Positions 2,390 through 44,025 of a stretch of 64,000 bases of DNA are shown here, in pieces (positions within the stretch are counted from its first letter, which is position 1; each line of letters starts with the position of its first letter). Both the position numbers and the translations under genes were made by a program. The notes under the pieces are model-generated. The model saw only the letters and a program-made list of their open reading frames with translations. It was not told the origin of the DNA and searched no databases. Source of the DNA: Porpolomopsis calyptriformis. Lineage: Eukaryota > Basidiomycota > Agaricomycetes > Agaricales > Hygrophoraceae. The stretch is from positions 434,001-498,000 of the forward strand of contig OX621167.1 of assembly GCA_951640195.1 (NCBI GenBank), given 5' to 3'.

Positions 2390-2390
2390 A

Positions 2391-2564: not shown

Positions 2565-3983
2565 ATGTCTCAACAAGAGTATGAAGCCGATCAAAGCGTT
2601 CCCGCACCCGGACCCAGCAACATCCCCCCCACCATCCGAGAAGAAGAAGAAGATGTCGTCCCATTTAATATGGAACAAGAGCTCAGAGACCTAAGAGCAC
2701 AAATCGACCAGTTCCGTGGTTGGTATTACAATGAAGTCGACGTCAATGACGAACTCCGAAAGGAATTAAAAACTCTCAAAGAAAGTCGACGAGAAGAATC
2801 TGAACCAGCCACCCCTCCCCCACGACGACGATCTGTACTTCGGGGACCTGGACTTTCCCCCTCGAACCCTTTCGTTTATCCTGCAAGAAGAACCCAATCC
2901 GTCCAACCTCCATCCCAACCAACCTTTCCCACTCAACTACCCACCCAGACGACTGCTCCCCCCACACTTCCAGCCCCTACCAAAATCAAAATCGCCGATC
3001 CAACTGAATACGATGGAACTTCAGAGAAGCTTGAAGACTTTATTCATCAATGTCGACTCAATTTTGTGGTCAAGGACTACAACGACAAACAGAAAATCAT
3101 CTACATGCTCTCTTATCTCGGTGACGGCAATCCAAGGGCTTGGGGACGACTGTTCACAGAAGGGGTTGATAGAACAAGGAATTTCATGTGGGACTATGCA
3201 ACGTTTTTGGACAATTTTAGGGAAGCTTTTGGAAGGATTAACCCAGCAGCGAAGGCACGGATCGAGCTAGAAAAAGTGAAGATGACAGGAACGATAGAAG
3301 ACTACAACCTTCGGTTCATGCAGCATGCAGCGAGAACTGAGTATAACGAGACCACTCTACTTCGGTTTTACAAAGCTGGACTCCCCCAGCTGATCCGAAC
3401 GCGGATTTACTCGATGGATAATATGCCGTCGACCTTGCTGGACTGGACGATGAAAGCGGCCCAGTTTGAAGAACAGTACCAGGAGCAACGAGCCAAACAA
3501 GCATTGTGGTCAAGTCGAGATCAAAAAGGAAAGAAGTCTGAAGCCAAATCGAATCCCCGAGGAAACCCTTCCCGCTCCACCACCACCACTTCATCCCCGA
3601 TCAAACAAGAATCGAGAGAAGCCTCTCTCAAGACAGTGAAATGAGACAACTCCTCCATCACTTGCTACAACTGTGGCAAAAAGGGACACTATGCCAATGA
3701 ATGTCGAAGCCCACGCGCTGAAGACGTTCCGGCATGTCAAGAAACCTCAACTTCTACTCGAGGAAAAGGAGGAAATCGCGGTCGAGGCAAAGGACGAAAT
3801 GTCCGAACGATCAATCGGGTTGATACAGAAGAATCGGAAGCGCAGATAGAGGAAGCACCAGAGGATGATGAAAAAGAGAAAAGGACGGCTAAGGACGACT
3901 TGAAGGATATGGGAATCGCGAATTGGGACAAGGAGAGACGGGCTGCGCTAGCTCGAGCGTTAAAAGAGCAAAAGGATTTTTAG
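2565..3983 (+). pseudogene. gag: gag of element 1, interrupted by one TGA
   Basis: Gag-like frame beginning at ATG, with an acidic Pro-rich N-terminus, a retrotransposon capsid-type region (around residues 140-290) and a basic linker. The frame is stopped by TGA at 3642-3644. Directly after it, in the same frame, comes the zinc knuckle CYNCGKKGHYANEC (C-X2-C-X4-H-X4-C), then a Gly/Arg stretch and an acidic tail. The natural gag stop is the TAG at 3981-3983, inside the frameshift signal. The premature TGA is most simply a former CGA arginine codon. A capsid lacking the knuckle would be the only product of this copy. Confidence 0.85.
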
Positions 3984-4017
3984 TCCGGCCAAGTGCTAAA
4001 AGCCCGAGCACTTTGGC
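3974..4017 (+). promoter_or_regulatory. -1 ribosomal frameshift signal, gag/pol of element 1
   Basis: Slippery heptamer GGATTTT (3974-3980) is followed at once by the gag stop TAG. Seven bases later a stem forms between 3988-3997 and 4007-4017 (ten pairs, one bulged T, nine-base loop). Pol continues in the -1 frame. GGAUUUU is a heptamer used by some plant RNA viruses for -1 shifting. The element 2 equivalent has the same layout. Confidence 0.7.
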
Positions 4018-7000: not shown

Positions 7001-7543
7001 GATCATCTCACAGAAGCCCATGAAGAAGCCACAAAAGCTCTAGAAACAGCGGCCAAAACCATGAAACACTTTGCAGATCGTAAACGGAAAGATATTCAAC
7101 TCCAAATAGGTCAATTTGTTTATCTTGATACCCGTAACTTAAAAACAGGTCGTCCAACCCTCAAACTTGATGTCCGACACACTGGACCATTCAAAGTTCT
7201 AGAAAGAATCGGAAAAGTCTCTTATCGCCTGGCCCTCCCCTTATCATGGAAAATACACGACGTCTTTCACGTTTCACTCCTGAGACCCGCTAATATTAAC
7301 TCCGATCTCCACCCAGAGGAAGTAGACGATAATCTCCGCCCACCTCTGGATGTCATTCAAGAGAAAGAAGAATATGAGGTCGAACAAATTCTCCAACATC
7401 ACAGGTCCACCCGACGTCGTACGTATTTAGTCAAATGGGTCGGCTATCCCATTGAAGAAGCAACTTGGGAGCCGAAGAAGAACCTCCTCCATGCGAAAGA
7501 ACGAATTCTAGAATACGAACAGTCAATTCAAATGGTGACCTAA
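3980..7543 (+). pseudogene. pol: pol of element 1 (PR-RT-RH-IN-chromodomain), two TGA stops
   Basis: Pol frame entered by a -1 shift from gag. Domains in order: aspartic protease (DSGTSGNFID, near 4160), reverse transcriptase (FTVIDIRWGFNN and YIDDI), RNase H (LETDASDFGIGAVLS), integrase zinc region with CPTCQQ, DDE core (TADLIVELP, ITDRGTQFAS, QTDGQTERTNQELE), GPF module and a C-terminal chromodomain (YLVKWVGYPIEEATWEP). TGA at 4250-4252 and 4274-4276 break the protease; element 2 has Arg at both places, so both were probably CGA. From 4349 the frame is open for 1064 codons, with catalytic residues of RT and integrase present. Confidence 0.93.
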
Positions 7544-7665
7544 TCATTCTTTCACAGTATCAACTCCCCTCATTTGTGTTTTCACCTTTATCACCTTTTC
7601 CAAACTCCGACTCATCCTTATAATCTCTTTCGTCTCCATCTTCCACTCTTAAAATCGACATCGCT

Positions 7666-8244
7666 ATGCCCGCAGAACGCTCACACCAAACTGCTCGCAA
7701 ATCTACTGGTGGTCGTCCACCCCGCACTCCTCGTATGTCCACCGGAGGACAACCCCCTCATTGCGCTCTCCCTCCGCTCGCTTCCACCTCCTCCACCTAT
7801 GGTGAAGCTGAGCTCGCCGGACAACTCTGGCAACATAATCGACGCGCACGCAATCGGGACCTCCCCATATGGCCAGAGGAAATCATCGCTCCACCCATCC
7901 CACCCAAGCAAATCATCGAGTCGTTACAGAAGGATGTCGAATACTACAAAAACGAAATCGCGAGACTAAATGAAGAATTGTATAATCAAGGAATGAGCTT
8001 GGATGGAAAGAGAAGAGCGAGTGAGTATTGGCGAGAACAGGCCAAACACTGGGAGGCGAAATACGAGGAAGTCACAAAGGTACTTCCCCATCTTGATTCC
8101 CCGGCTCCCCCTGTTTTCCCAGGTCCACTCGTCATTCCCCCCGGTTCGTCGTCGAACCCCATCACCATCCCCGATGACGACGATACTTCCCCGGCCAACA
8201 TTATTTCCTTGTCAGCCGCCGTCTCCGACAAGGACTTAACCTAG
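7666..8244 (+). CDS. Third ORF of element 1, coiled-coil protein after pol
   Basis: Open frame of 192 codons starting MPA, lying between the pol stop and the 3' LTR, on the pol strand. The N-terminus is basic and Pro/Ser/Thr-rich. The middle (about residues 85-135) is charged and predicted helical, with a heptad-like run around EYWREQAKHWEAKYEEV. The C-terminus has a Pro-rich linker, then an acidic patch IPDDDD. No signal peptide or membrane segment is visible, so an envelope protein is unlikely. Element 2 has a counterpart in the same place with the same start (MPA), a Tyr-Trp in the helix and an acidic tail. Function unknown. It is the only reading frame of this copy without a premature stop. 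Confidence 0.6.
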   Translation: MPAERSHQTARKSTGGRPPRTPRMSTGGQPPHCALPPLASTSSTYGEAELAGQLWQHNRRARNRDLPIWPEEIIAPPIPPKQIIESLQKDVEYYKNEIARLNEELYNQGMSLDGKRRASEYWREQAKHWEAKYEEVTKVLPHLDSPAPPVFPGPLVIPPGSSSNPITIPDDDDTSPANIISLSAAVSDKDLT

Positions 8245-8324
8245 TCCTTCCCCTCCTCCACACCCGTCAACACTCTCGAAGCTGCCTCGAATTTCGGGAC
8301 GAAATTCCTTTTAGTGTGGGTGTA

Positions 8325-8693
8325 TGTCATGGACACTTTTTTCTTTTTCCTTTTAGTTATACTTGATTAGTCTCCATTCCATTTATCCTTCCGCTTTACC
8401 GTTTTATATATAGAGACTGATCACATGTACCTTCCTTCCGACTCTTCACAAGTCACATTCCATTTCCGTTATTCTTTTTGTGACTCTTCACTAGTCACAT
8501 TCTGGATTCCGCTTTGTAATCGTACATACGACTGACTCATGGCGACTCAGGTAGTTAGTATATAAAGCCTGACCTTTAGTCAGTAGGTTAAGTTCGATTC
8601 CTAGTTAGCTCCCCCACTCTTTAGTCGAATTCCATTTCCCCATCAGCCCCTCCAACACGAGAAGTAAAACCCTTCGACTACCAAATCATAACA
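8325..8693 (+). repeat. 3' LTR of element 1
   Basis: Second copy of the LTR, followed by target copy GATGC. Preceded by the palindrome AATTTCGGGACGAAATT, a sequence type common just before the polypurine tract of chromoviruses, and by GTGTGGGTGTA at the junction. Confidence 0.95.
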
Positions 8694-9933: not shown

Positions 9934-10335
9934 TGTCACGGACGTAAATTTTTCACTTCCTCTCTATGTTAGTGATTACTACTTAGTCAGACAGGTCTTA
10001 TCTCTGCTTGGGATTCCCCAGGGATTCCCCACAATTCCGTATCTTTTCATATATCCGAGATAGGACATATTTCATTTCCGACAATCATGTTTCATCTCTT
10101 CACATGCTCCGAGTTCCTTTATCATGCTTATCTTTACTCGTCGCATGTATTCCTCGTGTTTACACTGACTCATCCGCAGTAGCGTAGTCAGTATATAAAC
10201 TCCTAGTTAGTCGTACTCAGACTTTAAGTCTGATTCCTCATTAGCAACCCAATAACTAGGACTTGAGACATTATCATCGTCTTGGGACAGAGCTCTCCGA
10301 AGTAAAACCATCTCATCGACAACCAGTTTATAACA
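9934..10335 (+). repeat. 5' LTR of element 2
   Basis: Direct repeat of 16375..16765. It contains GGGATTCCCCA twice in tandem where the 3' LTR has it once, which accounts for the whole 11-bp length difference. Confidence 0.95.
10192..10199 (+). promoter_or_regulatory. LTR TATA box of element 2
   Basis: TATATAAA, 34 bp before the self-primer segment at 10226. Same relation as in element 1. Confidence 0.75.
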
Positions 10336-10336
10336 A

Positions 10337-10347
10337 GAATCAGACTT
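10337..10347 (+). other. Self-primer binding site of element 2
   Basis: GAATCAGACTT, one base after the 5' LTR, is the exact reverse complement of AAGTCTGATTC at 10226-10236. Compared with element 1, both arms changed together and pairing is kept, which is covariation evidence for the self-priming fold. Confidence 0.8.
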
Positions 10348-10698
10348 CCTTCTTGCTCTCTCCCCCCTACTTGATCCACCTTCGCTTCAACACTGGACGA
10401 CGACAACGAGGACCTTTACGATCCCTCTGAGCAGAACAATCCTCTTTCACAGTCACTCTACTCACAAACTCGAATCTTCCCAGATCCAAACGAGGAAGCT
10501 AGTCAAGCTTCTCCTTTGCCAAATATCACACAAGCTCTAGGAAGAACTCGAAGCGAAACAACTCGCTTACTCGCCGCCGCCCAGTCACAACGTCCCATCA
10601 CTCCCCCTACTGTTAGATATCAACCCTTCCTGTTCCAACAACCGACTCGACCTTCTTCACCTCTAACGACACCTTCACCATCACCATCACCAGATCCA

Positions 10699-11898
10699 AT
10701 GGGTTCCCGCGCTAACCCCCCTGTTCCCAATCTCAATGAAATCCTCGCAGTTATGAACGACTTGCGGAGGGAAATGGCCAACCTTCAGGCCTCGAATGTG
10801 AACCAAGCAGCAGAGATTCAAGATCTCCATCAACAACTTGCTGCCCAAGCTCAAGTTCAGCCCCCACCGGGACCTCAACCTCAACCTCCTGCCACTCCCA
10901 CCATCGAGATAAAGATGGCGAAACCAGACGAGTTCACTGGTCGACAACAAGATGTCGACAAATTTATTAACAGCTGCGAATTGTATTTCATGGGGAAGCC
11001 ATACCGCGATGAACACAAGATCCCCTTTGCCCTTTCCTTCATGAAGGGCATGATGGCTCAAACTTGGTCTGAGAAAGAGACTAACGACATGAGGACTGTC
11101 AACTGGACCGGCCTGACAGCTACCTGGGCCGCCTTCGTAACTCGATTCCGATCAACGTTTGAAGGAATCGACAGACAGTCCCGCGCTCGTAACGACATCA
11201 AGAATCTCCGTCAAGGAAAAAAGAAGATAGAAGACTACAACCTGGGCTTCGGCGCTTTACAGGTCGATACCGGTTTCAACGACGCCGCCCTCATTGATCT
11301 CTACCAAGCTGGACTCGACTCCGAGTTCATTGAATACGTTTACCGACTCCCCGCCGTCCCTGCCACACTTCAAGAGTGGAAGGACGCCACGACACGTTAC
11401 CAACATCAGAAAGATATTCTCGCTTCACAGAAACAATCCTCCACATCCCAACCCCAATACTCTAACCCCTTTCCTGCACGAGGATCGTATGTGGCTGCAA
11501 CGATGACCTGCCAAACGACAGCAGCCCCCACCATCAAAAGAGAGGAACCTTCCTCTTCTGCCCGTACGATCCCATATGGGAATTGCTACTCCTGCGGCCA
11601 ACCTGGCCACTTCACGAACGCCTGCCCAAACCGTGTCGCCAGTGATGCGAAGAATTTACCTGATACCTCTTCCTCAAGGCGAGGAGGATACTTTCGAGGT
11701 AGAGGAGGTTACAGAGGATGAGGACGAGGCAGAGACATACGTGTCGTTGCCACTGAGCCCCACGTGGAGAATGTCAGCTTGCCCGCTACATTGGCAATGA
11801 GCGAAACTCCGTCGGACATGGCGAAATCTGGTATATGCAATTGGTCGGATGATCGGAAGAAGAGGTTGGCAGTGGACTTGAAGGCCCAGGGTTTTTGA
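10699..11898 (+). pseudogene. gag: gag of element 2, interrupted by one TGA
   Basis: Gag frame. The first in-frame ATG is used as start; the frame is open upstream to 10375 without an ATG, so the true start is uncertain. It holds a coiled-coil N-terminus, a capsid-type region and zinc knuckle CYSCGQPGHFTNAC. TGA at 11719-11721 interrupts an Arg/Gly box and is probably a former CGA. The frame then continues to the natural TGA at 11896-11898. The last residues (KAQGF) match the gag end of element 1 (KEQKDF), which supports reading through the premature stop. Confidence 0.85.
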
Positions 11899-11931
11899 AA
11901 GGTTCGGACGATACGCTCAACGTTACGAACC
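11889..11931 (+). promoter_or_regulatory. -1 ribosomal frameshift signal, gag/pol of element 2
   Basis: Slippery heptamer GGGTTTT (11889-11895) directly followed by gag stop TGA. Five bases on, GGTTCG (11901-11906) can pair with CGAACC (11926-11931). Pol lies in the -1 frame. GGGUUUU is a known viral -1 heptamer. The sequence differs from element 1 but the design is the same. Confidence 0.7.
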
Positions 11932-14900
11932 ATACGACTCGATGTACCATTACTCCATGCAATTTATTTCGAACTCTCGGTACTATCGAAAAGGGCGATT
12001 CAGGACTTACGATGGACGTTTGGATCAAGGCTTCAGACAGTGGTCGACGTGTCCCCGCCACGTGTCTTATTGATAGCGGAGCTTCTGGGAACTTTATGGA
12101 CAAGAATTTTGCAACTCGTCACAAATTTACTCTTCAGGATTTGGAAACCCCAATCCCCGTACGGAATGCCGATGGGTCAGAGAACCGAGGAGGCCCGATC
12201 GTTTTTGACACAGATGTCTGGATAGAAGCTCCAGGTGGACACACTGAAAGGATCCGTTTGGAAGTGACCGACCTCGGATCCAAGTTTGATATTATCCTCG
12301 GCTACCCATGGCTCAGAGCTCAAAACCCTAGTATCGATTGGGAGAGTTCAACACTGGCTCTCGGAGGCAAAGAGATTTCCCGTCGGTATTGTAGCAGCGA
12401 AGCAGAGCCCTCTGTGGTAGAATCGGTCTCGCTGGCGATAACGAATGTTTCAAAATCGGACGAGTCTTGAGCCAGCACAGTGGAGGAAGATATGCGAAAG
12501 TTTGTACCGGAGGTCTATTGGAAAGACTATGCTAGTGTCTTTGCCAAGGAGTCCTTCGATTGCCTTCCACCTCATTCTGAATTTGATCACGTCATTGATC
12601 TCAAAGATAGCTTCGTACCTCAGAATGACAAGACTTATCCGATGTCCCCTCGAGAGATAGACTTCCTAGAGAAGTTTTTGGAAGAAAACGTAGCCACTGG
12701 ACGAATATTCAAAGGTACCTCACCTCAAGCCGCTCCCTTCTTCCTGAGCAAGAAAGCTGAAGAAATCAACGCGAAAGGACAAGACGCTGGATATAGACCA
12801 ATTGAAGACTACCGTTACCTGAATCACTTCACCGTTCCTGACCAATATCCTCTACCACTTCTCCATCAAATTGTTCAGCAACCCAAATTACGATCCGCTG
12901 TGCTATTCACAGTTGTGGATATCCGATGGGGATTTAACAATATTCGAATCAAAGAAGGTGACGAATGGAAAGCCGCTTTCAATACAGTCAAGGGACTCTA
13001 TGTTCCAAGAGTGATGTTCTTTGGTCTACGGAACTCTCCAGCTACGTTCCAACAGATGATCGATACGCGATTTGCTGAAGTGTTGAAATCAGGTTGTGTT
13101 TTCATCTATATCGATGATGTTCTCATCTGCGGAGATGATCTAGAAGAATTGCGTTACTGGACGTTCAAAACCCTTGACATCATAAAGAGGAACAAACTCT
13201 CCTGTAAACCTGTCAAGTGCCAATTCGAGAAAGAAGAGGTGATCTATCTGGGGATGACCTTAACGAAAGGTCACATCGGAACCAATCCCAAGAAAGTCAA
13301 AGCCATAGCCAAGTGGCCCATACCTCGAACCATTAAACAACTCCAATCCTTTCTCGGAAGCGCGAATTTCTGGAGAAAATATATCAAGGACTTCTCAAAG
13401 ATCGCCCAACCACTCAACCAATTACTCCGCAAAGATACTATATGGGAATGGACCTCCAAACGACAACATGCCTTTGATCAGTTGAAACACTCCCTCACAA
13501 ATGCCCCTGTCCTCGAAGTACCGGATCAAGACCTGCCATACTGCCTGGAGACTGACGCCTCTGGTTTTGCCTTAGGAGGAATACTGTCTCAACTGCACGA
13601 AAATGAATGGAAACCCATAGGCTTTCACTCAAGATCTTTAACCCCTGCTGAAAAGAAATATCCAACTCACAACGCTGAGCTTCTAGCGATAATAGACTGT
13701 CTTAAAGCATGGCGACATCTTTTGGAAGGTTCACGACACGACCTTCTGATTCATACCGACAGCCTCGCCCTCAAGTATTTCAGTACTGCTTGCGTATTAT
13801 TTGGACGACGTGCTCATTGGTCAGAAATCTTGTCAAGATACGAGTACAAAATTGAATACGTCCCAGGGAGAAAGAACAAGGCTGATGGGTTATCCAGGCG
13901 CCCGGATTATTTCGATGAGGGTAAAGACGAGGTGGAAGATGAGGTTTTAATCACAGATGAACATTGGATCAATTCGATCGTCAAACTTTCAGAACTGGAC
14001 TTTTTCGCAAGATTACGCTTCAAACTACCAATACCGAACAAGATCTCACAAGAAATCGAGGATGCCTCACTGTTTTGGGACCAAGCTGATGGGTTGGTTC
14101 GCAATGTTGAAGGTCGAATTGTGGTGCCGGAGGAAGTATCTTTGCGCACAGACATAATACGACTGTCCCACGCCTACCCCCACACTGGACACCCTGGCAT
14201 TGAGAAGATGAAGGAGTTAGTACTCCGAAACTTTGTTTGGGATGGCGTCTCTCAAGACGTTATCAACTACGTACGGTCCTGCCCTGCTTGCCAACAGAAC
14301 AAGAATTATCCTTCAAAGCCGACAGGACTCCTACAACCTATACCCCCCGCTACCGAACCATGGACTGAGATAACCATCGATCTCATTGTTCAACTACCTG
14401 ACTCGCTTGGATATGACGCCGTGATGGTAGTCGTCGATCGTTTCACAAAACGAGCCCACTTTATTCCGACAACTTCCAATCTCTCATCAGAAGGCGCTGC
14501 CCGACTTTTCCGTGATCACATCTGGAAACATCATGGATGGCCAAAGAAGATCATTTCCGACCGTGGAGTTCAGTTCGCATCAAAATTCACTGAAGCCCTC
14601 AATAAACTCCTAGGAACCATTTCTGGACTGTCTACTGCTTATCATCCCGAGACCGATGGTCAGACCGAACAAACGAATCAAGAACTCGAAGTCTACCTAT
14701 GGTTCTATACCAATTTCATGCAAGACGACTGGTCCGAATGGCTGGCTTCTGCCGAATTCGCTTACAATAATCGACAACACTCCTCCACATCACAATCACC
14801 CTTCTATTTGGAATATGGCCGTCACCCTCATTTGCCGATCACAATCGAATCCCCGAGTAATGTCCCCGCAGCAAACACCTTTCACGAACGTCTCACGCGT

Positions 14901-15431
14901 GCTCAGAAGAGTGCTGGCGAATCACTATTACACGCTGCAGAATCAATGAAGAAATATGCCGATCGAAAACGGAAACTCTCTCCCTCCTTCAAAGTCGGAG
15001 ATTTGGTTTGGTTAGATACCAAGAACATCAAGACGACTCGACCTGCCAAGAAACTAGATAACCAAAGAACTAGACCATTCAAGATCCTGAAACAAGTATC
15101 GGATCTTGCGTATCTTATCGATATCCCCAGAACTTGGAAACTCCACCCAGTTTTTCACGTATCACTCCTGAGACCAAATGTCGAAGATAAGTCACTCCAC
15201 CCTGATATTACTGATACATCTCGACCTCCACCAGATCTGATCGAGAATGAAGAAGAATACGAAGTTGAATCTATTCTTCAACACTCCGGAGCTCAACGTC
15301 GACGAAAGTATTTGGTCAAATGGAAAGGTTATCCGATCGAAGAAGCTACTTGGGAAGAACAATCGAACGTCTTACGACACGCCAAGGAAATTGTGAAGAC
15401 TTACGAAGACTCAATTCAAACGGCGACTTGA
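11895..15431 (+). pseudogene. pol: pol of element 2 (PR-RT-RH-IN-chromodomain), one TGA stop
   Basis: Pol frame entered by -1 shift. Protease motif DSGASGNFMD, then TGA at 12468-12470 in the linker before RT. The same frame continues without a break to 15431 and encodes RT (FTVVDIRWGFNN, YIDDV), RNase H (LETDASGFALGGILS), integrase zinc region (CPACQQ), DDE core (TIDLIVQLP, ISDRGVQFAS, ETDGQTEQTNQELE), GPF-like module and chromodomain (YLVKWKGYPIEEATWEE). All visible catalytic residues are kept. One nonsense change separates this pol from an open frame. Confidence 0.93.
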
Positions 15432-15602
15432 TTCGTTTGTCATCATTCCAGCTGTCCATTTTTGAACTCTATTTTTAGGTCGAGTTGGCGTTTATAAAAA
15501 CTCAGAATCGTTGATATGATTCCATCCAGTCATTCCCCACTTTCGACGAACTTGCCCAATACTGTTATTCCCAGCACCAACACTGTTGAATCATCGTTCA
15601 TA

Positions 15603-16340
15603 ATGCCCGCCACTCGATCTCCCTCTCCCCAAGTCGCCATCCGACGTGCTGGACGAATTCCCTCATCCGCCATCGTCCGTTCCCCTACCCCCGGTCCCTC
15701 CACCTCTTCCTCCTCCACTTGACAACTACGCCGACAAGCTCGCGCATGCGCAGAAGATTTCTTCAAGGAGTACCCTACGCAGACCCCTCCTCCCGAAGAT
15801 CCCGCCGTCACCATTTCGCATCTCACAGTTCACAGCAATAGCGTTAGCAACTGGAACCGAGAACTTCGACAAGAGCGCGAGGTCTTGAAAGCTGAGCTCA
15901 AAGCGTTGGAGAGGAGCGCCCTGTATTGGAAGAACCGCTGGGACGAAAGTGAGCTCAAAGTTTGGGAGCTCCAACGACAGAAGAAGCGAACATGGGTCGA
16001 TTGCTACGACGTCACCACCCGCGCCATCATCGTCAAGCTCGTAGAGGAGAGTCGTCGAGCTGAATGACTTTCTCGAGAAGATTTTCTTCAAGCCCAACAA
16101 GATCTCGCGACGACGGAAACCATAATCAACTACGGTACGTCAGTCGAGTACCCCATCAACCTCGACTTGGAATACCCGGACGACGACGATGTCAAGACAG
16201 TCCGAGCCCCTTCCCCCATCGAAGCGGCTTCGGAAGCTATCCCCATCGCTTCCCTCTCAGTGGTCATCAAGGCCCCCACTGGTGAGGAAATCCAGACTCA
16301 GGCCTCAGAGGACGAAACGACCGACACCGCCCAAGTTTGA
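15603..16340 (+). pseudogene. Third ORF of element 2, two TGA stops
   Basis: Counterpart of the third ORF of element 1. Frame of 246 codons starting MPA (an upstream in-frame ATG lies at 15516). TGA occurs at 15720-15722 and 16065-16067; otherwise it is open to TGA at 16338-16340. N-terminus Ser/Pro-rich; middle highly charged and helical (around ALYWKNRWDESELKVWELQ); C-terminus acidic with YPDDDD. No membrane segment. Similar position, length, coiled coil and acidic tail in two diverged elements argue for a real gene. Confidence 0.6.
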
Positions 16341-16374
16341 AATTTGGGTTGAATTTCCTGAAAAACGAGGTGTA

Positions 16375-16765
16375 TGTCACGGATGTAAATTTTTCACTTC
16401 CTCTCTATGTTAGTCATTACTGCTTAGTCAGACAGGTCTTATCTCTGCTTGGGATTCCCCACAATTCCGTATCTTTTCATATATCCGAGATAGGACATAT
16501 TTCATTTCCGACAATCATGTTTCATCTCTTCACATGCTCTGAGTTCCTTTATCATGCTTATCTTTACTCGTCGCATGTATTCCTCGTGTTTACACTGACT
16601 CATCCGCAGTAGCGTAGTCAGTATATAAACTCCTAGTTAGTCATACTCAGACTTTAAGTCTGATTCCTCATTAGCAACCCAATAACTAGGACTTGAGACA
16701 TTATCATCGTCTTGGGACAGAGCTCTCCGAAGTAAAACCATCTCATCGACAACCAGTTTATAACA
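16375..16765 (+). repeat. 3' LTR of element 2
   Basis: Second LTR copy, followed by GCCCT. The purine-rich GAAAAACGAGG four bases before it is the likely polypurine tract. Confidence 0.95.
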
Positions 16766-24352: not shown

Positions 24353-26522
24353 ATGCTCTCCCAAAACACACGCTCAACCTCTCCAGACACTTCCGCACTC
24401 GACCATCATGACGAGAGCGTACGTATCGCAGTCCGCGCTCTCGGTGATATGAGAAATAGCGCTCCCTCATGTCCGTATTCTCTCTCTTCTACCTTCACTC
24501 TCTCTCACTCCACACCCAGCATTTCACACTCCACCAACCCTCTCAACCTCCTCATCATCATCCTCGAATTCTCTCCCCGCTTCCTCAACTTCAGACGATA
24601 TCAACTCTCCAGACTTTGTATACCGCGTCTCCCACCTCCCCATCGTCAACTCCGCCCTCCGAGCGTATTCCCAAGGGAAAGCTAGCTCCAGAGTCGTCAA
24701 GGTACCTCCGCACAATTCCCTTCCCCATAATTTACCCTCATTCTCGCTCAGTACGGTGCAGAAATGATGGAGTCCTCCGTCCGCGCCGTCTCCCGCCCCG
24801 TGATCGATCACCTACCCGTAAACGTAAACCAACTCGACGAATTTGCCTGCAGACAATTGGACCGTTTCGGCCGTTACCACCGCCCTTCAGAGGGCGAACA
24901 TACGCTTGACAGTGACTATTCCGATGATCGCGGACGAGCCCTTGTCGCTCGATCTGCACCAACCACCTCCACTCGGGACCTCTCAATGACCCCAGAAGAA
25001 CCCGATCAAAGGCATAGACCACCAACCTGGCCAGAAGGTTCGTTTCCCCCCGTACTCTCATCCTTTCCACCCGTTCACATCCCGCCAGTCTTCCTCCCTC
25101 CACCACCACTATCGCCATCCGGCTCCCGCACACCCACATTACATCCGCCTGATCAACATGATTCACAGCAAACCGAGCAGCAGGTAGCCCAGCGCAGTCG
25201 ATGGCAAGCAGTCCTCCTCGAAGCGGGTGGACTCAGCGCAGCGCTGAGCGAGGAAAGCATGCGAAGATTAAAATACTGTCTGCAATGGCTCCAGTACGCA
25301 ACAGCGCATATAGATGCTCAGATCCTCATCCTCCGAGACTTCACCGCTACTCTCCAACCGCTTCCCTCTACGCTTCCCCCTTCTTCGCCATCACATCCCA
25401 ACTCCAACTCTCATACCCCAACCCACTCTTCCGCCGAGCCTATCTCCCCAGCCCGTATGCGCACTTTGGCAAACGTGCGCCGCGATGTGGTCAACACTAT
25501 CCGGCAAGCTGTAGATGTCATCAGCAAGTACGCGGGCGGCGCACTCCCTGAACCCGCCAGGGCGAGAGTGAGGGGATTCATCTTGAAATTGCCGCAAAAG
25601 TGGGCTAGCGCTGCCGGTGTTGAGATGCCGTCCGGGGGTGGTACTCCAAGTACGGCGACCGCCGGTGCAAGTGGTGGTGGGAGTGGAGGAAGAGGCGCGA
25701 TGAGAGGCGCGAGATATCAGCATCGGAGGGAGAGGAGTACAGGATTGGATGGCTCTCCTGGATCGTCGAAACCTGTGTCACCCATGTCATCACCGAGGAT
25801 GGCCAGATCGCCTTTAGCTGGTAAATAATAATAAACTCATTCTCATTTTTTTTTTTTTATAACCTCATCTCATGCATTTAGTTCACGCCACACCACCGAC
25901 AGCTGGTGCAGCTATGCAAGCTGCACAACGCGTACTGGCGCTTGCCACCGAGAGCTTGGACATGATGCGGGGCGTTACAGGGGTGGTAAAGGACAGCCTG
26001 GACCGTGCGGATGCCTGGGTTGGAAGGTTGCAAACGGTCGGGCTTGCACAGCGAGGAGAGGGCGAAGCGCAAGATGACTCGGGCCAGCCTGGTAGCAGCA
26101 GTAGCGTCAACGGCGGCAGCGGTGCTGGCGTCTTTCGCGACGAGGGAGGGATTAGCGACGCGAACAGGGGCGAAAGTGGTGATGGACCAGGGCGGGTGCG
26201 GTCTGGAGCCGAGGAGGGTATGACTGAGGATCCATCACTGCAACTTCGGAGCAGAGAGGATACCGGGGAGGGCGAAGATGAAGGTGGCTCGAGATCGTAT
26301 GCGACTTCGTCCACGTTCTCGAGTGTGCCTTCTACGCCTGGACCACCTTCGCCAGGCGTCGGCCCTGTCATGGGCCTTGGAGGGCTTCATCTGGAGAGGG
26401 GGGGAGGTGGGGCACCAGATGAAATGATGGATGTGCAGGGGACGGGCGAGGGTGATGAGAAATTCAAAGATAGAAATGTGGAGATGGAGATGGACGTTGA
26501 TGATGATGACGACGACGCCTAG
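24353..26522 (+). CDS. OPI1: OPI1-like transcriptional repressor of phospholipid genes
   Basis: Four exons (24353-24470, 24520-24701, 24752-25820, 25882-26522), 669 residues. Yeast Opi1 senses phosphatidic acid at the ER and represses inositol/choline-responsive genes by blocking the Ino2-Ino4 bHLH pair. The family core is clear: VRIAVRALGDMRN near residue 25, NQLDEFACRQLDR near 125, and the diagnostic LLEAGGLSAALSEESMRRLK followed by YCLQWLQYATAHID near 250-290. A further conserved helix (AMQAAQRVLALATESLDMMRG) is joined across the last intron. N-terminal and C-terminal parts are Ser/Pro-rich and acidic. The E-box upstream would fit bHLH control of its own promoter. Confidence 0.93.
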
Positions 26523-35158: not shown

Positions 35159-36662
35159 TCAGGTCGGAGACAACGAGTTGGGAGCCTGTCGAATGGGAGA
35201 TGTGATGTCGAGCGTAGGCTCGGGCTGTGCAAGAGGGGGTGCCTGAGGGGAGGAGGGATCTGACGGGTTCAGAAAACTGCAGCGGGATGCCGATGATGGA
35301 GAGGAGTCGGGAGGGGAATAGATGGGAAGCTTGTAGTTATCCGAGACTCCGCCGACATCCGTTGTGGTAAGAGAAAGCGACCCGCGATTCGACTCGTTCT
35401 TGCGCATAAAGACAGGCGGACCACCTCTTGAGGTACTCCACGACCCCTTGGCTCTAAATTCAAGGTTGTAGATTAGAAGATGAGATAGGAAAGGAGGAAC
35501 CGTGCCTAGTAGGGATCGTGTAGCCGAGGTATTTGGCAACCTTGAAGAAAGCTAGACGGTAGTGCTTGCGAGACTCGTCGGCAAATCCGAAGAAAGCGAA
35601 GAACACAAAGGCGCAAAGGACAGGACTCCAGCGAGTGGACTCCAGCGGAATGGCCGAAGCAGAAGAAGAATGCCAGAGGAGAGAGGGGACTAGGTGAACA
35701 GCATGGAATCCCCAATGAGTGTTTGCCCAACTGATGTATGGCCGGGCTGAAAGCGTGTTCCGATACAAGAAATACGAAGCCAAAGGAATGGTGAAAATGA
35801 TTTCGATGCCGGCGAGACACATGAGACGGAGGTAGCGATTGGCATTCAAACTGCCGTTATTGGCAGAGAAAAGCTCCTGGACCTGTTTTCGCCTCTTCCA
35901 GAATATGAGAATAGTCAAAGCTGATTGAAGCAGACTTTAATGCACGAGAAAAGATGAAACGAGTTGGTCGACTTACAGCCGTATACGGCAGAAACAAGTC
36001 CAATAGCAATGGGCCAAGCCGAGACGAGCAGAAAAGCGGGCCAAGATAGATATATGGCTGCGAAGCAACCGACATCTTCAAATATATTAAAGCGATGACC
36101 TTGCACGATGTACTCTGCCCAACAAAGGATGGTCAATGATATGCATCCAAAAGGGTAACGAAACTCACCCAAGGCGATTGCGACCAATGGTATTGCTAAT
36201 CCTATCGCCAAGTCGACGCATACAGCGCGACGCGTCTGTCTAACCTATCAATATCAGCCCCAATCAACGCAGGAGAGACGAACCTCTTTTTTCGTGAAGG
36301 TCACCGAGCGGCAGCGAGCGATATAATACAAACGACGGAAGATACAAAGCGATGAGATAGGGATGCCAACATTGGAGCCAATAATGATGCGAGAGGCTTT
36401 TAGTCGTCAGTTTGTTTCAGGCCGTCCAACGAGGACGACAACCGGACTTACAGATATCACACCATATAGGTGCCCAGTTGATCGCGTTTCCGTTCCAGAC
36501 AACGGAGTTGACAAATAAATTGAGGCAGGAAACGCCAGTCCAAGCCATGTAGAGACATGTTCCCGTATTCCATGCCTTCAGATGCCATGGGAAGGGGATA
36601 ACGACGAGAACAAAGCCAAGAAAAGAAAAGATGGAAAAGACGTAGTTTGGATACTCAAACAT
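35159..36662 (-). CDS. STE3: STE3-like pheromone receptor (seven-helix GPCR)
   Basis: Six exons (36662-36452, 36396-36284, 36244-36169, 36114-35977, 35920-35506, 35453-35159), 415 residues. Receptor for lipid-modified mating pheromones, acting through a heterotrimeric G protein. Family hallmarks: start MFEYPNYVFSIFSFLGF, then PFPWHLKAWNTGTCLYMAW, NSVVWNGNAINWAPIWCDI, QGHRFNIFEDVGCFAAIY, LFSANNGSLNANRYLRLMC and FGFADESRKHYRLAF, covering seven hydrophobic helices. The Ser-rich tail SWSTSRGGPPVFMRKNES is typical of agaricomycete receptors and is reached through a GC-AG intron (35454-35505). Without that splice the protein ends about 20 residues after the last helix. Another Met lies 13 codons upstream. 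Intron 2 is very short (39 nt). Divergent from the peptide-gene array. Confidence 0.93.
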
Positions 36663-37105
36663 GGCTAGAGAATCAGAGAGTGGGGATTCTGTGTTGCCCA
36701 AGCACCAAGTGGGCGGTAAACGAGGAGAATCTTTGCGATTCTCATCTTAAGAGCCCCCAAAAGACGACCTTCGACCGTATTGGAGATCCCGCGAGTCGTT
36801 TCAGGAATGGTTAGTTTCTGTCGAATCGTTTGTCACGAAGATGGGAAAGTCGGAACGTACGGCGGGAAGGAGATCTGTCATCAAGCAGAAACGCTTTTCC
36901 ACTGATATAGCTTAGTCATATGCCATGAGATACGGTCGAAGTACCCATATTCGGCAGTTTTCTAACTATTTTAGTAAGTCACGAGGCGAAGATCATGAAC
37001 CTTCGTGAATATATCACAAGTTGGCTGTATGGCGCGCTCTCACGCAACTCTCAAAATAAATCATTTGCTCATGCTCAAAGAAGGACTCTATTCATTTGTG
37101 AAACT

Positions 37106-37113
37106 TATAAAAG
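37106..37113 (+). promoter_or_regulatory. TATA box of peptide gene A
   Basis: TATAAAAG, in the same place relative to the gene as in copy B. Confidence 0.6.
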
Positions 37114-37154
37114 GGGCGGTATGGTACGCCATCTCCCAGGTTCACAATTACCAC

Positions 37155-37371
37155 TACTTCTTCACTCTCGTCCTAGCATGCAGTACACAACTTCCCTCTC
37201 TTTCCTTTGCTCTAGCTAATTCCTTGCTGATCTGTCTAGTGATAGCTTTCGCATCGGCATCTCCAGTTCCCGAAGCAGTTCGTCTCTCCTTTGCTTCCAT
37301 TATTCCTATCTAACGCTTTTGATTCATAGGAGACTCGCGAAGCTGAACCCTGCAGGTATGGCTGCGATTAA
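37155..37371 (+). pseudogene. Peptide gene A (type 1), start codon deleted
   Basis: Nearly the same as copy B, but the stretch with the ATG and next codons is missing: CAATTACCAC runs straight into TACTTCTTCACTCTC. Both introns are still recognisable. The last exon would encode ETREAEPCRYGCD, so the tail differs from copy B while the Cys spacing is kept. Confidence 0.7.
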
Positions 37372-38346
37372 GAAGGCCTAGGTGAACCTGCACCATCTAT
37401 ATACATTCCCGCAGGAAGCTCAATTCGTGACTAGCAATGGCCAGATATAAGCAAAGATATCCGTCTCCGTTTTGTGTATATATTCAGTATGTCTAAGAAA
37501 GATGATTGTCATAAAGTAGACGAGCACAAAATTACCTTGAAACAACGGCAATGTACGAAGAACATGGCACTCTTTTGAGGAAAATACCTAAACGGAGACT
37601 GGAAGCCGTGTCGCACATACCCGAAGAAGTTGATTTGGGATTTGGATACCCGAAGAAGTCTATTTGGATAAGGAGGTTTGTTGGTGGCAGCGGACAACCT
37701 CATGCACCGAGACATACTCCTGACCAACCCTTCGAAGCAAGGTCTAAAGCGCATTTACAGACCTCGTCCCATCCTTTTCCTGGTCGATGTGACCCAATAC
37801 CCTGTATATTTTCATAGATTGTCGCCATGAATACATTGTGTTTAAGGTACTTACCGACAGAAGTTGGCGTTTCAATCATGATGAATAGAACTACAGTACA
37901 AGACACACCATCATGCGCCAGTGGGCTGTGTTGCAATTGAACGTTTTAAAGATGCGGTTACTGATTTAGGGTGTTGTCTCAATTTTTTCTACCTTCCACG
38001 GTATTGCGTTTCATTTGGATTAGGATCTTTTGGTCAAATCGTTTGTTACGAAAATGAACAAGTCTTAACAGGTTCACGGGTACGGATCGAGGACGTCAGC
38101 AAAACATCACCGGCGACTTTGATGGATATTCGGTAGTTTTCTAACTGTTTTAATAAGTACTTCATTATTGATTTCGGTGTGCTAATCGTCGCCATGCATT
38201 ATCACCTCAGTCGAGGGGGCGCAGATCCCAAAATTAACAGGATAAACAAGACTTCGTGAATCTATCACAAGTTGTCTCTTGGGCGCGCTCCCACGCAATA
38301 AATCATTCCCTTATGCTCAAAGAAGGACTCTATTCATTTGCGAACT

Positions 38347-38354
38347 TATAAAAG
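38347..38354 (+). promoter_or_regulatory. TATA box of peptide gene B
   Basis: TATAAAAG, 50 bp before the start codon; strong TATA boxes are not common in the neighbouring host genes. Confidence 0.65.
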
Positions 38355-38396
38355 AGGTGGGATGGTACGCCATCTCCCAGGTTCACAATTACCACA

Positions 38397-38629
38397 ATGC
38401 AGTCCAACATCTTCTTCACTCTCGTCCTAGCATGCAGTACACAACTTCCCTCTCTTTCCTTTGCTCTAGCTAATTCCTTGCTGATCTGTCTAGTGATAGC
38501 TTTCGCATCGGCATCTCCAGTTCCCGAAGAAGTTCGTCCCCTCTCCTTTGCTTCCATTATTTCTGTCTAATGCTTTTTGATTCGTAGGAGGCTCGCGATG
38601 CTGACCCCTGCAGGTATGGCTGCGGTTAA
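38397..38629 (+). CDS. Small secreted peptide precursor B (type 1, pheromone-like)
   Basis: Three exons (38397-38436, 38494-38531, 38588-38629), 39 residues. Introns 57 and 56 nt with TAG acceptors; intron 2 has a CTAAT branch site. The product has a signal peptide (MQSNIFFTLVLAC... ending FASASP), a short acidic spacer, then EEEARDADPCRYGCG. If cut after Arg and trimmed by an X-Ala/X-Pro dipeptidase (DA, DP), the mature peptide is CRYGCG. This is the logic of alpha-factor maturation by Kex2 and Ste13, inferred, not shown. A reading with a further intron from GTATGG to CCCGCAG would change the last residues. Confidence 0.6.
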
Positions 38630-39289
38630 GAAGGCCTAGGTGAACCTGCACCATCTATATACATTCCCGCAGAAAGCTCAATTTGTGACTAGCAACGGCC
38701 AGATATAAGCAAAGATATCCGTCTCACTTGTTCCCCGTTTTGTGTATATATTCAGTATGTCTAAGAAAAGATGATTGTCATAAAGTAGACGAGCGTAACG
38801 CACGAAGAACATGGCACTCTTTTGAGTGGTAAACCGATATCAGCAAGAGGATACCTAAATAGAGACCGGAGTACGTACCCGAAGAAGATCTTGGTGATTA
38901 CTCAACACACCGACCGATGATCTTCTGATTACATCGATTGTTGATCAGAAATCATTTTGTGGGAGCGGTCGATCTCATGCGACGTAGACATCTGACCAGC
39001 CCTTCAGAAGCAAGGCGCGTTTACAGATCACATCCTTTTCCACTTGCTACCTAGTCGATGCGACCAGATACCTTGTATATCTTCAGGCATAGTATGTCGC
39101 CATGAATACATTCTGGTTAAGGTACTTACCGACAGAACTTGGCGTTTCAGTCCTGACGAACAGAACTACAATACAAGATGCACCATCATGCGACGATGGG
39201 CTGTGTTGCGATTGAACGCTATAAATGAAAATGAGCACTTTCATCACTGATCCCAACTATTTGCTTCGTATCCAATCTTTGACTGCATG

Positions 39290-39479
39290 ATGCATTCCAA
39301 CGTAATCGTCGCAATTTGCGGTAGCTCGCGGCAAGTGGATACTATTCTGTTACCCATCACTTGAACTCATCTTCTCTTCGCAGTGTCTCTATCTGCGTCG
39401 GCATCCCCTATCCCTGATTGTCAACCGTGAAGCGATACCTAACGCCGACCCTTTCTGCCGCCCCAGCTGGTGCAACTAA
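39290..39479 (+). pseudogene. Peptide gene C (type 2), frameshifted
   Basis: Close copy of gene D. One extra base in exon 1 and an 8-base deletion in exon 2 put the parts out of frame. The conserved end still reads REAIPNADPFCRPSWCN before TAA. TATAAATG lies at 39220. Confidence 0.7.
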
Positions 39480-40248
39480 GGTATCTCCTACTTTCTCTCC
39501 CAATTCTTTCACATCTCACCCCCGATGTCAGGCTTTTAGCATATTATTTGATTGAAATATATTCAGATTAGTCTGAATAATTTTATATTTGGTTTTCACC
39601 ATCAACGCGGTTGGTGAAGCGCCGACTTCTGTCGGTAAGTACCTTGCTTATGCGATGAAAATATACAAGTAACATGCATTGGTAGCAGTGGGAGGATGAT
39701 ATGTGGAAACGCGTTTTAGGGTGTTGCTGAAAGATCTCAACTCTTGCTAAAAAAAAAACCACAAGGAAACACCTTCCACGGTATTGCCAGTTCATTTGGA
39801 TTAGGGATGTCTAGTTTCGGTCGAATCGTTTCGTCGAATCGTTTGTCACGAAAATGAACAAGTCTGAACGGGTCCATGGTACAGATCGAGGACGGCTTAT
39901 CATCGGCGACTTCGATGGATATAACTTAGTCATTTGCCATGATACACGGCCAAGGGTGACTATACCCCCCCTATTCGGTAGTTTTCTAACTAATTTCAGG
40001 TGGACCGAACTGATAAAAAGTCGGTATTGATTTCAGTGAATGATAACCTCCGCGCGAAGGATCTCAAAATCAACGGGATAAAACAACGCCCATGTGAATA
40101 TAGATCACAAGTCGTCTGTCTCTTGCGCGAGCGCGCTCCCACTCGATTCCCCAAAATAAATCGTTGGCTTATCCTCAAATGAGGGGGCGGTATGGGGTCC
40201 ATCGATTTCCCCACTCCGCACCTCAGTTCATTAAGCAAGGTGCTTGCC

Positions 40249-40302
40249 GAAGGAGTCGGTGCTTCAGTCATGATCCATCATGAAGGAAGCACCGACTCCT
40301 TC
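40249..40302. repeat. Perfect 17-bp inverted repeat in the promoter of peptide gene D
   Basis: GAAGGAGTCGGTGCTTC (40249-40265) and its exact reverse complement (40286-40302) with a 20-base loop. Copies Q1 and Q2 lack the second arm. Confidence 0.8.
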
Positions 40303-40361
40303 ATCAACAGAACTACAAGACGCACCATTTTTTCACAATGGGCTGTGTTGCAGTTGAACGC

Positions 40362-40369
40362 TATATAAA
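40362..40369 (+). promoter_or_regulatory. TATA box of peptide gene D
   Basis: TATATAAA, 93 bp before the start codon. Confidence 0.65.
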
Positions 40370-40454
40370 GGTGCGGTGAACATGAACACTTTCTTCAAAT
40401 CCCTCAATTCTCCCAACTATTTGCTTGCTTTCGTATCCAATCTTTGACTGCACT

Positions 40455-40653
40455 ATGCATTCCAACATACTCGTCGCAATTGCAGTAGCTTGCAGCACGT
40501 CGACATTATTCCGTTACCCCATCACTTGAACTAACTTTCTCCTCGACAGTGTCTCTATTTGCTTCGGCATCTCCTATCCCTGACAATAATCTTGTCAACC
40601 GTGAAGCCATACCCGACGCTGACCCTTACTGCCACCCTGGCATGTGTAGCTAG
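40455..40653 (+). CDS. Small secreted peptide precursor D (type 2, pheromone-like)
   Basis: Two exons (40455-40494, 40550-40653), 47 residues. Exon 1 has the same length as in copy B (40 nt) and the same phase; the intron would be GC-AG (donor GCACGT) with acceptor CGACAG. If that donor is not used the gene is broken. The product has a signal peptide (MHSNILVAIAVAC... ending FASASP), spacer, then REAIPDADPYCHPGMCS. After the Arg come four dipeptides, EA-IP-DA-DP, each an X-Ala or X-Pro substrate; removal would leave YCHPGMCS. Cys-X4-Cys with PG recalls ascomycete alpha-pheromones. Function is inferred only. Confidence 0.55.
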
Positions 40654-41010
40654 GGTATGTCCTACTTTCTCTCCCAATTCTTTACACACATCTCATCACC
40701 TATATGCCAGTTATCACCACTTTTCGTCCATACTATTGCCAGTTTTGCGTCTCTTTGAATGTCATGCGTGGTTTTGTACTTATATTTACCCCCCTTCGAC
40801 ACTCTTCCCACGCAACGTATTTATTTTCGGTAGTCTGAATATTTTATATTTATTTTCACCATCAATGCGGTTGGAGATTGTTTGTTAAGAGTGAAGCGCC
40901 CGGTTCCGTCGGCAGGTAATGCGTATTGACTAGGTAGCAGTGGACATGGATAGGATGAGATGTAGAAACGCGATTTAGGGTGTTGCAGAAGGATCTCCAT
41001 GGGTCCCTGA

Positions 41011-41495: not shown

Positions 41496-44025
41496 TCACT
41501 CGCGAGTGGGCGATTCGACGGTTGGCCATAGATTTTCCCTGCTCCGCTCTCTCTCCAGGCGTATAGGGACCGCACCCGTACTCGGAGCGCCGGGCGTGGG
41601 TGACCCTCGAGTTTCTTGTTGCCCTCCGCCTCTCATTTCATCTATCCCCTTTTTTACACCCAGCATCAGCCGATCCGTCTTCTCGAGCATCTCCTGCCAT
41701 TTCTTTCGCTGCTCATGCAGCTCGGCATAATGCCGCTCGAGCTCACTCACAGTCGGTACTCCACTCAACGACACCGCCCCTATGTCACTCCCAGGAGGGG
41801 GCGATGGCGCGTGCATGGCCGAGATCGCGGTTGGCGGGTAATATGGATGCGGCAGTGGCAACAGGAATGCCGGATTTCCTCCTATTCCAACGGGATTCAG
41901 CGGAGAATGTGTCCTGCTTGGTGCAGAAGAACCAGAGCGCATATAGCTCGAAGGCGTCCCAGCGAAGCTGTATCCTCCATATCCTCTTCCACCCACAACG
42001 ACAGTACCGCTAGCTCCTTCCCCTCCGCTAAGAGCGGCATTTAAAGGTGGCAAATCAAATCCGCCGTGCGGATGTGGCGAGTGGAATCCACGCTGGGGAT
42101 GTGTATGGGGAAGGTATCTTCCATCCAGTCCCGCCATATCTCCCCGAGGTACCGACTGCGCACGTTGATGGTGATCATGGCTGGGGGATGGTGCTGAGGA
42201 CGACCCAGTATGCCCAGTGTCTGTCAAAAGCATATTTCTTCCAGAGCGCGAATCGCCGATGGGGTCCCCCCAGGATCCATTGGGATCTCTGGATCTCTTT
42301 TGCAGCATCCTCCCCGACTTGTCCCCATTGTCCATATCGTCGTCAATACCAGTATCCTCATCGTCCTTCCGCGATCCGGCTTTGCCTTTTTCAGTCTTCA
42401 TCCTCCTCATCCTTTTTTTCTTAGGCTGTTCAGCATCCCCCTCACTCTCATCTCCTGCCTGGACACCCCCATTTCCGACCCCAAGTCTTGCGACGGTAAC
42501 AAGCGTCTCTGCAGCAGCCTGGTCGGACATTCTTCCCGAGCCACTCGCAGTCCCTGCAGCAGCTGGAACTCTTTTTCTTCGTTTTATCACAGTCTTTTTC
42601 ATGGAGTTGGGTCGGTGGGTACCATGTAACTTGAAATAGAGTCCTGTGTATAGGATAAGGATGATAGCCACAGTCAGTGAATCATGCGCAAAACGTCCAA
42701 AGTGGTACGATAAGGCCGTGAGATAAAATGGCGAACGGAACGTATAGCGGGCCATTTACAATTCCGAGCATGGCACGTGGCTTCCGCGATGCAAAGATAA
42801 GATCAAGAGAAGGGAGACACGCACCACAAGCATTGCATATATTATTACCGACGTCGTCCCTTCTCCAAAGAGGGGTCGTGCTCGTCCCACAGTTCGCACA
42901 ACTCAGAGCGCCTACAACCCCTCGGGGTTTCTGTTTTCCCAATCCTCCAGAGGCTTCAGGGCTCCCACCGTCGCCGCTTGGTGGATCGGGGGCTGGGGTT
43001 CCTGGTGAGTTAAGGACGGCCTGAGCTAGTGTGGAACTTGAATTAAGGTTCGCGTTTGGATCTTGCGGTGTGGGTAAGGTATCGGTTTCCATCATGAGCC
43101 GGGCGGAGACCGCTAGAACATTGTTATAAGTTGGACAACCTGCGCATGTTGACGAGCCACCTGTGCCGTCACAATGTCCGTCACCAGGACAGGTCCCTGC
43201 TCCGGGGTTCACAGATGGTGCGTCATGTTCCCCTATGGGCTGCTTGACGTCGGATGCAGATGGTGAAATTTGTCGTGGATGCTGTTGCGGCGACGTTGGC
43301 GCCGCGAGGGTAGGTTTCGATGGGGCGGGAGAGTTGGACATTTGGGTAGTAGTGTTCGGATTGCTGTTACCGTTCAAATGAGGTGGAATTGTGGGGGGGG
43401 ATGTTGCAGTAAGGGAGGACGGACGGGCGATACGCCTGGATTTGAGATAAAGACCTACGTGGGGAGGGAAAGTGGCAGGAAGCATGCAATTAGCATCAGT
43501 ATCCTGGTCGATCAACACTATCTAATGATATCTTTGAGCCAGAGTGTAAGCCATGCTGGTGCAGCGACAAAGTCGTGCATAATGTGCATGACCGGTGCTA
43601 GCAAGACAGCGATGTGATATAATGTGATCCATAAAGATCCCGCCCCACCCATGAACACGTGTATGACAAAGACGATCTGGATATGAAAATGAGCTTACCG
43701 CATGCGTTGCATACAGAATTTCCGTCGGCGTCTCTGCGCCATAGAGGGCTATCAACTGTGCCGCAATTTGCACACGACAATCGTGAAAGATGGGCGCCAT
43801 TTGATGCAGAGTTAGATTGGTCCGCGGGGGGACGGTCTTTTGGCGAGTGCAATGACTCGGATGCGGTGAATTCGTCGTGTAAGGCTTGCACGCTGTCAGA
43901 GTGCGGAATTGACGTCGAATGGTCGTGATCGTTGTGAGCTGTTGCGGTGGGGCTTAGATGTTGGATCCTGGATAAGGACGGTAAGGTGAGTTACGAGATG
44001 GCGGATCCAACATGATAAGTGACAT
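41496..44025 (-). CDS. Two-finger GATA repressor of iron uptake (Urbs1/SreA/Fep1 type)
   Basis: Four exons (44025-43995, 43938-43699, 43454-42825, 42643-41496), 682 residues. Family members repress siderophore synthesis and iron uptake when iron is sufficient. Finger 1 is [18 protein letters not shown]...[19 protein letters not shown]; finger 2 is [18 protein letters not shown]...[16 protein letters not shown], both C-X2-C-X17-C-X2-C. Between them (about residues 179-199) is the cysteine motif CPGDGHC...CAGC, the iron-sensing signature of this family. A basic nuclear signal ([10 protein letters not shown]) follows finger 2, and a C-terminal coiled coil ([18 protein letters not shown]) may bind a Tup1-type corepressor. 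The first exon was chosen by splice phase and is less certain. GATA motifs lie upstream near 44.2 kb. Confidence 0.9.

Follow-up and report, generated by a model that had tools for sequence, protein, structure and literature searches.

What are the tiny reading frames that stand beside a STE3 receptor gene in the mushroom Porpolomopsis calyptriformis, and are peptides made from them? We have addressed this in a window of 64,000 nucleotides (C5:434001-498000, contig OX621167.1 of assembly GCA_951640195.1; genome of 33.5 Mb in 17 contigs), to which all coordinates given without a contig refer. The answer that we favor, with a probability of roughly 0.55, is that they are a tandem family of very small genes for secreted peptides, two apparently working and two decaying, whose products would be released as extracellular signals.

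Four candidate peptide genes upstream of STE3

Four homologous units lie on the plus strand at 37.1-40.65 kb, divergently upstream of STE3. Every one of them ends in an arginine, two or four X-Ala/X-Pro dipeptides and a tail of 6-8 residues with two cysteines, the second of which is always next to last (4/4 tails). From copy 1 to copy 4 these ends read EA-EP/CRYGCD, DA-DP/CRYGCG, EA-IP-NA-DP/FCRPSWCN and EA-IP-DA-DP/YCHPGMCS, exactly as the initial annotation of this DNA had given them, and all are confirmed in the sequence (REAEPCRYGCD at 37336, RDADPCRYGCG at 38594, REAIPNADPFCRPSWCN at 39426 and REAIPDADPYCHPGMCS at 40600, each followed by a stop). The components of the cluster are the following.

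37106-37371, plus strand: copy 1, decayed; TATA box at 37106, terminal exon 37330-37371 encoding ETR-EAEP-CRYGCD and stop
38347-38354, plus strand: TATA box of copy 2, 50 nt 5' of its ATG
38397-38629, plus strand: copy 2, intact; exons 38397-38436, 38494-38531 and 38588-38629; 39 aa, tail EAR-DADP-CRYGCG and stop
39220-39479, plus strand: copy 3, decayed; TATA-like sequence at 39220, ATG at 39290, tail NR-EAIPNADP-FCRPSWCN and stop
40362-40369, plus strand: TATA box of copy 4, 93 nt 5' of its ATG
40455-40653, plus strand: copy 4, intact if the GC-AG intron 40495-40549 is spliced; exons 40455-40494 and 40550-40653; 47 aa, tail LVNR-EAIPDADP-YCHPGMCS and stop
37001-39225: duplicated unit with copies 1 and 2 (37001-37950 and 38252-39225, 78% identical overall)
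39159-40703: duplicated unit with copies 3 and 4 (39159-39526 and 40306-40703, 77% identical)

Two of the copies had been described as broken, and so they are: in copy 1 the stretch that would hold the start codon is missing, and in copy 3 the reading frame is lost ahead of the tail. The spliced models of the other two are open from ATG to stop (MQSNIFFTLVLACMIAFASASPVPEEEARDADPCRYGCG for copy 2, MHSNILVAIAVACMSLFASASPIPDNNLVNREAIPDADPYCHPGMCS for copy 4), and both begin with a hydrophobic leader (best nine-residue hydropathy 3.0 and 3.2, cut-off 2.2) whose end, placed by eye, would be ASA/SP in both. Intron 1 of copy 2 (57 nt) could also be retained in frame, which would give 58 aa with the same tail. 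Copies 2-4 have a TATA box 50-93 nt 5' of the ATG, and copy 1 has one in the matching place; four more TATA matches in this region do not precede any copy.

Judging by their sequence, one tandem duplication gave rise to copies 1 and 2 and another to copies 3 and 4, and the units of copies 1 and 2 retain 88-100% identity in 60-column windows across the gene bodies. We have taken all four as one family because the proteins of copies 2 and 4 share 22 invariant alignment columns and the first exon is 40 nt long in both subfamilies. DNA searches of the 33.5-Mb genome found no fifth copy. No ATG-started open reading frame (ORF) longer than 94 aa was present from STE3 to 41442, and no RNA family reached the gathering threshold at 34.0-44.5 kb.

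The predicted path from precursor to signal is simple. The leader would direct secretion, a protease of the Kex2 type, or a different one that cleaves at monobasic sites, would cut after the single Arg, and a Ste13-like dipeptidyl aminopeptidase would strip the X-Ala/X-Pro pairs, so that the short peptides CRYGCG and YCHPGMCS, probably closed by one disulphide, could be released. Both types of enzyme are encoded in the genome: on C7 a P-domain protein of the Kex2 type, which has a hydrophobic stretch and an acidic tail, and on C5 a DPPIV-type (Ste13-type) dipeptidyl peptidase. The alpha-factor-like route proposed in the initial annotation is supported by the architecture of the precursors and by the presence of these genes; what does not agree with it is the cut site, a single Arg only. 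This had been listed as a weak point and is less serious than feared, since Coprinopsis precursors expressed in Pichia gave products apparently cut after a single Arg (PMC9769878).

Motif frequency and substitution patterns

A motif of this kind could be an accident of composition. The tail pattern by itself matched six times in 288 kb (the window plus 25 stretches flanking STE3 genes) vs. 4.65 on average over 20 triplet shuffles, and four of the six are the copies described here; the tail motif alone is not rare and occurs at chance rates. A scan for small spliced genes over 240 kb, in which a leader, a basic residue and dipeptides were required, returned 26 rows. Three had two cysteines within the last 22 residues, namely copies 2 and 4 and L013:4489-4663. 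The last was rejected as a further case, its cysteines preceding the cut site, and copies 2 and 4 are the sole rows with two cysteines after the dipeptides (the row for copy 2 is another splice form; for the model given above the leader was verified separately). With both the pattern search and the scan, and after removal by eye of 24 of the 26 scan rows and two of the six pattern matches, no convincing similar precursor was found beside the other STE3 genes in the 25 flank stretches.

The comparison between the subfamilies is more informative. Copies 2 and 4 differ by 41 substitutions in 39 aligned codons, which produce 17 amino-acid changes vs. about 24 expected (P 0.0005-0.002), although this alignment was protein-guided and hence somewhat favorable. 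In the first 25 codons, where the alignment is gap-free, P is 0.02-0.03, and 0.006 for the exon-2 part of them; the NG86 rates of nonsynonymous and synonymous change (dN and dS) are 0.32 and 1.50. Between the tails of copies 3 and 4 there are 13 substitutions, yet the R, the four dipeptides, both cysteines and the stop have been kept, an outcome seen in 0.3-0.5% of the trials of a neutral simulation. Taken together, the coding evidence for these peptide genes appears moderate.

Several observations weigh against working peptide genes. Two of the four copies are dead, and the introns of the others have unusual donors (GC in copy 4, a weak GTACAC in copy 2). A single Arg and no dibasic site is found in all four copies. 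No candidate homologue appeared among 5.8 billion proteins, in a search that needs three shared 5-residue words and in a database where small spliced genes are seldom predicted. The amino-acid counts in the tails of copies 3 and 4 do not reach significance (P 0.22 for the whole tail, 0.16 for its spacer and 0.71 for its core; the other frames gave 0.92 and 0.54). For the changes between copies 1 and 2, 22-28% of neutral trials leave the motif whole, and the introns of this pair are conserved as much as the exons. Because of the latter, the similarity of copies 1 and 2 is explained by recent duplication or gene conversion, and we have rejected their high identity as a sign of selection. The codon constraint to which the initial annotation had looked is indicated between copies 2 and 4, but not in the amino-acid counts of the copy 3/4 tail, and the copy 1/2 pair is uninformative.

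Some of these facts (the dead copies, the unusual donors, the chance rate of the tail pattern, the missing homologues) would also fit relics or duplicates that never functioned, with frames that are leftovers and no peptide made. We consider this unlikely, given two complete frames with leaders, amino-acid changes between the subfamilies that are fewer than neutral, and the equal length of the first exons together with the TATA boxes. Real secreted peptide signals are most likely what these genes encode.

The receptor gene

35159-36662, minus strand: STE3 receptor gene, intact, 416 aa; six exons (36662-36452, 36396-36284, 36244-36169, 36114-35977, 35920-35501 and 35451-35159)

The STE3 that had been reported next to the peptide genes is real, intact and directly adjacent, and is of the canonical type rather than diverged. 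It matches PF02076, its spliced model is open to the stop, and its first 332 aa are 66% identical to P0001, annotated by JGI as 'pheromone a factor receptor'. The JGI receptors P0001-P0004, from sister lineages, have 58-67% identity to it, and the relatives that the protein searches gave are agaricomycete, no close named one being among the best 120 rows of either search. The profile search of the whole genome gave 87 exon-level STE3 matches, clustered (in the fetched stretches and the window) into at least 25 loci, some of them fragments. In a FastTree phylogeny of rough exon-joined proteins with 21 references, midpoint rooting and support values that were not printed, the agaricomycete pheromone receptors are joined by just two of these loci, the STE3 of the window and a gene at 2453.7-2455.3 kb of C3, and the other 23 loci make up a diverged set. 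All 21 references were drawn from a search with the window STE3, so that relatives of these 23 loci in other species are unsampled. By BLASTP the window STE3 is 49-54% identical to four JGI sisters and at most 27% to any of the 23 diverged loci (matches longer than 150 residues). From this grouping and these identities it follows that the peptide genes stand beside one of two canonical-type receptors and not beside one of many alike.

The second canonical-type gene (L013:8082-9313, C3:2454-2455 kb) has about 68% DNA identity to the window gene. Peptide copies occur beside just one of the two: the flanks fetched around the C3 gene contained neither a convincing CaaX gene nor an alpha-type peptide gene. 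The strongly diverged STE3-like loci, at least 23, are found on C13 (1205-1322 kb, mostly clustered), C3, C6, C10 and C12 (within L014-L037), and several may be fragments.

The initial annotation considered that the cluster may lie at or near a mating locus, which is unproven. The genome has a mating-type homeodomain match (PF12737) on C2, and PF05920 was matched on C2 and once on C10, with none on C5. The pheromone response element of the Ustilago type has the motif ACAAAGGGA; allowing one mismatch, it occurs 15 times in the window vs. 18.2 expected, and nowhere from the STE3 start to 41442.

Lipopeptide pheromone-like precursors in the same genome

Small genes beside a STE3 are what would be expected of basidiomycete CaaX lipopeptide pheromones, and this location is the one point in favor of the peptide genes being misread CaaX genes. 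That idea is already contradicted by the sequence, and we regard its probability as negligible: the cysteine is next to last and not fourth from the end in all four tails, which end in Cys-X, a hydrophobic secretory leader is present, and PF08015, the Pfam pheromone model, has zero matches at the peptide genes.

The contrast with CaaX pheromones drawn at the outset holds for the tails, which have no CaaX; it does not extend to the genome, in which there are also three glycine-rich CaaX pheromone-like precursors (MDSFFT...GYC[I/V]IA) at C13:640077-640193, 649573-649689 and 672502-672618 (L046, L044 and L045). We gave them this name because of their size, the way they start, the CaaX end and their mutual similarity; PF08015 matches two of them weakly (16.6 and 13.4 bits, below the cut-off of 22). 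Because of these precursors, the peptides do not simply replace a lipid pheromone. In agaricomycetes, receptors and CaaX genes are usually linked. Here the nearest STE3 detected on C13 is more than 500 kb from the CaaX precursors, and inspection by eye showed no convincing CaaX gene in the flanks that were fetched around the 25 STE3 loci. Two frames with Cys-aliphatic-aliphatic ends near the two canonical-type STE3 genes (window 44082, plus strand; L013 7624, minus strand) were discarded, no Met being listed 25-110 codons before, and a 51-aa Lys/Glu-rich frame ending in GDCALM (L023:2805, minus strand), at some 4.6 kb from the STE3 of C10 (1060-1061 kb), was set aside as seemingly not pheromone-like.

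Comparison with alpha-type precursors

Along with ascomycete alpha-factor and alpha-pheromone precursors, the family has a leader, a basic cut site, XA/XP dipeptides and a short core with two cysteines, as in some filamentous ascomycete cores. The closest resemblance is that of YCHPGMCS to the core of Xylona heveae, RFCHLPGQGCSK (sequence from PMC6339444), and a gapped alignment of the two gives 6/8 identical residues. Random cores that have these cysteines score as high in 0.015% of trials, although this pair is the best of eight tested; the other seven comparisons with known alpha cores gave P of about 0.05-0.63. The differences are also clear. The window precursors are single-core and have a single Arg instead of a KR/RR/KK site; ascomycete precursors carry one to 16 cores, repeats being usual but not universal (PMC6339444). 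No alpha-factor Pfam model matched the peptide precursors up to E 10 with the HMMER filters on, and nothing meaningful was found in Pfam. The search for a STE2 receptor suggested by the initial annotation was done, and the genome has no PF02116 match. The control genomes were silent too, so that this is not proof of absence, and for the same reason the informative control is the abundance of STE3 (87 matches by the same method). The family would work like alpha-pheromone precursors, yet it lacks the dibasic site, the repeats, the homology and a STE2 match, and we regard it as a variant and not as a member.

Nor is the processing route as such undescribed, since STE13-type precursors and Pleurotus peptides have been published (PMC6339444, PMC9769878). 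In 2019, basidiomycete Kex2-processed repeat proteins (KEPs) with clear STE13 signatures were reported, among them one of Trichosporon oleaginosus with an alpha-like peptide that has two cysteines, with speculation on cognate G-protein-coupled receptors (PMC6339444); as the pipeline of that work sought repeats, single-core precursors fall outside it. A study of 2022 found peptides of STE13-type precursors in Pleurotus, called the presence of alpha-type precursors in basidiomycetes unexpected and raised the question of their function (PMC9769878); the word 'receptor' is absent from the main text of that paper. The window family shares with these proteins the processing logic and the phylum and differs in having one core per precursor instead of repeated cores. 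The STE13-type cores quoted in passages of the two papers end in W, unlike the Cys-X end of the window tails, and these passages mention no link to STE3. As for dikaritin-type ribosomally synthesized and post-translationally modified peptides, the window has 65 stop-to-stop frames of at least 150 codons, and among the 20 of them that were scanned with Pfam there was no tailoring gene of the UstY kind.

What is new here is the position of single-core two-Cys precursors directly beside a canonical-type STE3. In the accessible text of the open-licence literature, without preprints, no STE3-linked alpha-type precursor was found in a basidiomycete.

Is STE3 the receptor?

The adjacent STE3 is the first candidate receptor for such signals, although this is an unproven guess. 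Alpha-type basidiomycete precursors have been published without a known function (PMC9769878), and there are orphans among the STE3-like receptors of basidiomycetes (PMC8161036); an alpha-type family beside one specific canonical-type STE3 is a concrete candidate for a ligand-receptor pair. Like the window gene, the brl (B-receptor-like) orphan receptors of Schizophyllum are STE3 proteins whose genes are not flanked by CaaX pheromone genes, and small secreted proteins have been suggested as their possible auto-inhibitors (PMC8161036); the difference is that here a concrete family of small secreted peptides directly adjoins the receptor.

The peptides might be the cognate, unlipidated ligands of this STE3, which would have switched to, or added, an alpha-factor-like disulphide peptide. 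The divergent position next to a receptor that is one of just two of the canonical type, the lack of convincing CaaX candidates in the fetched flanks, the missing STE2 match and the typical pairing of receptor and ligand at basidiomycete pheromone/receptor (P/R) loci (PMC6730849, PMC8161036) would all agree with this. We nevertheless find it doubtful. The three CaaX precursors could serve the window STE3 unlinked, and no similar peptide gene accompanies the C3 gene. STE3 classically receives lipidated peptides, and a mating ligand beside the receptor that it activates would be self-stimulating, which is unexpected. A partnership, at one locus, of a canonical-type agaricomycete STE3 with an alpha-factor-like peptide that is closed by a disulphide and carries no lipid would breach the CaaX-only rule and is improbable; if it were true, the split by which ascomycetes have both pheromone chemistries and basidiomycetes the lipid one only would fall.

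The proximity to STE3 could also be a coincidence, the genes encoding secreted small Cys peptides with another job such as defence, a role at the surface or interaction with other organisms. The copy 3/4 tail core changes as freely as neutral sequence, just one of the two canonical-type STE3 genes has peptide genes, and virulence factors, surface fibrils and modulators of mutualism are among the KEP-derived peptides that have been characterised (PMC9769878). We deem this explanation rather unlikely in view of the location beside a canonical-type receptor. Moreover, with an XA/XP spacer and so short a core, the products look more like signalling peptides than like known antimicrobial proteins, and it is as extracellular signals that we prefer to read the products of the family.

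Other features of the window

Past the peptide cluster, the nearest Pfam-recognised gene among the scanned frames is a GATA zinc-finger ORF (42685-43521, minus strand). Two Ty3/gypsy-type retroelements occupy 2021-8693 and 9934-16765, with gag and pol frames at 2388-7540 and 10375-15428; each has a pair of flanking direct repeats, with identities of 97.3% and 96.0%, and relatives are found in L034 and L035. Elsewhere in the window there are matches to Opi1 (24731-25825), an APP1-type phosphatase, RTC4 and Spt20.

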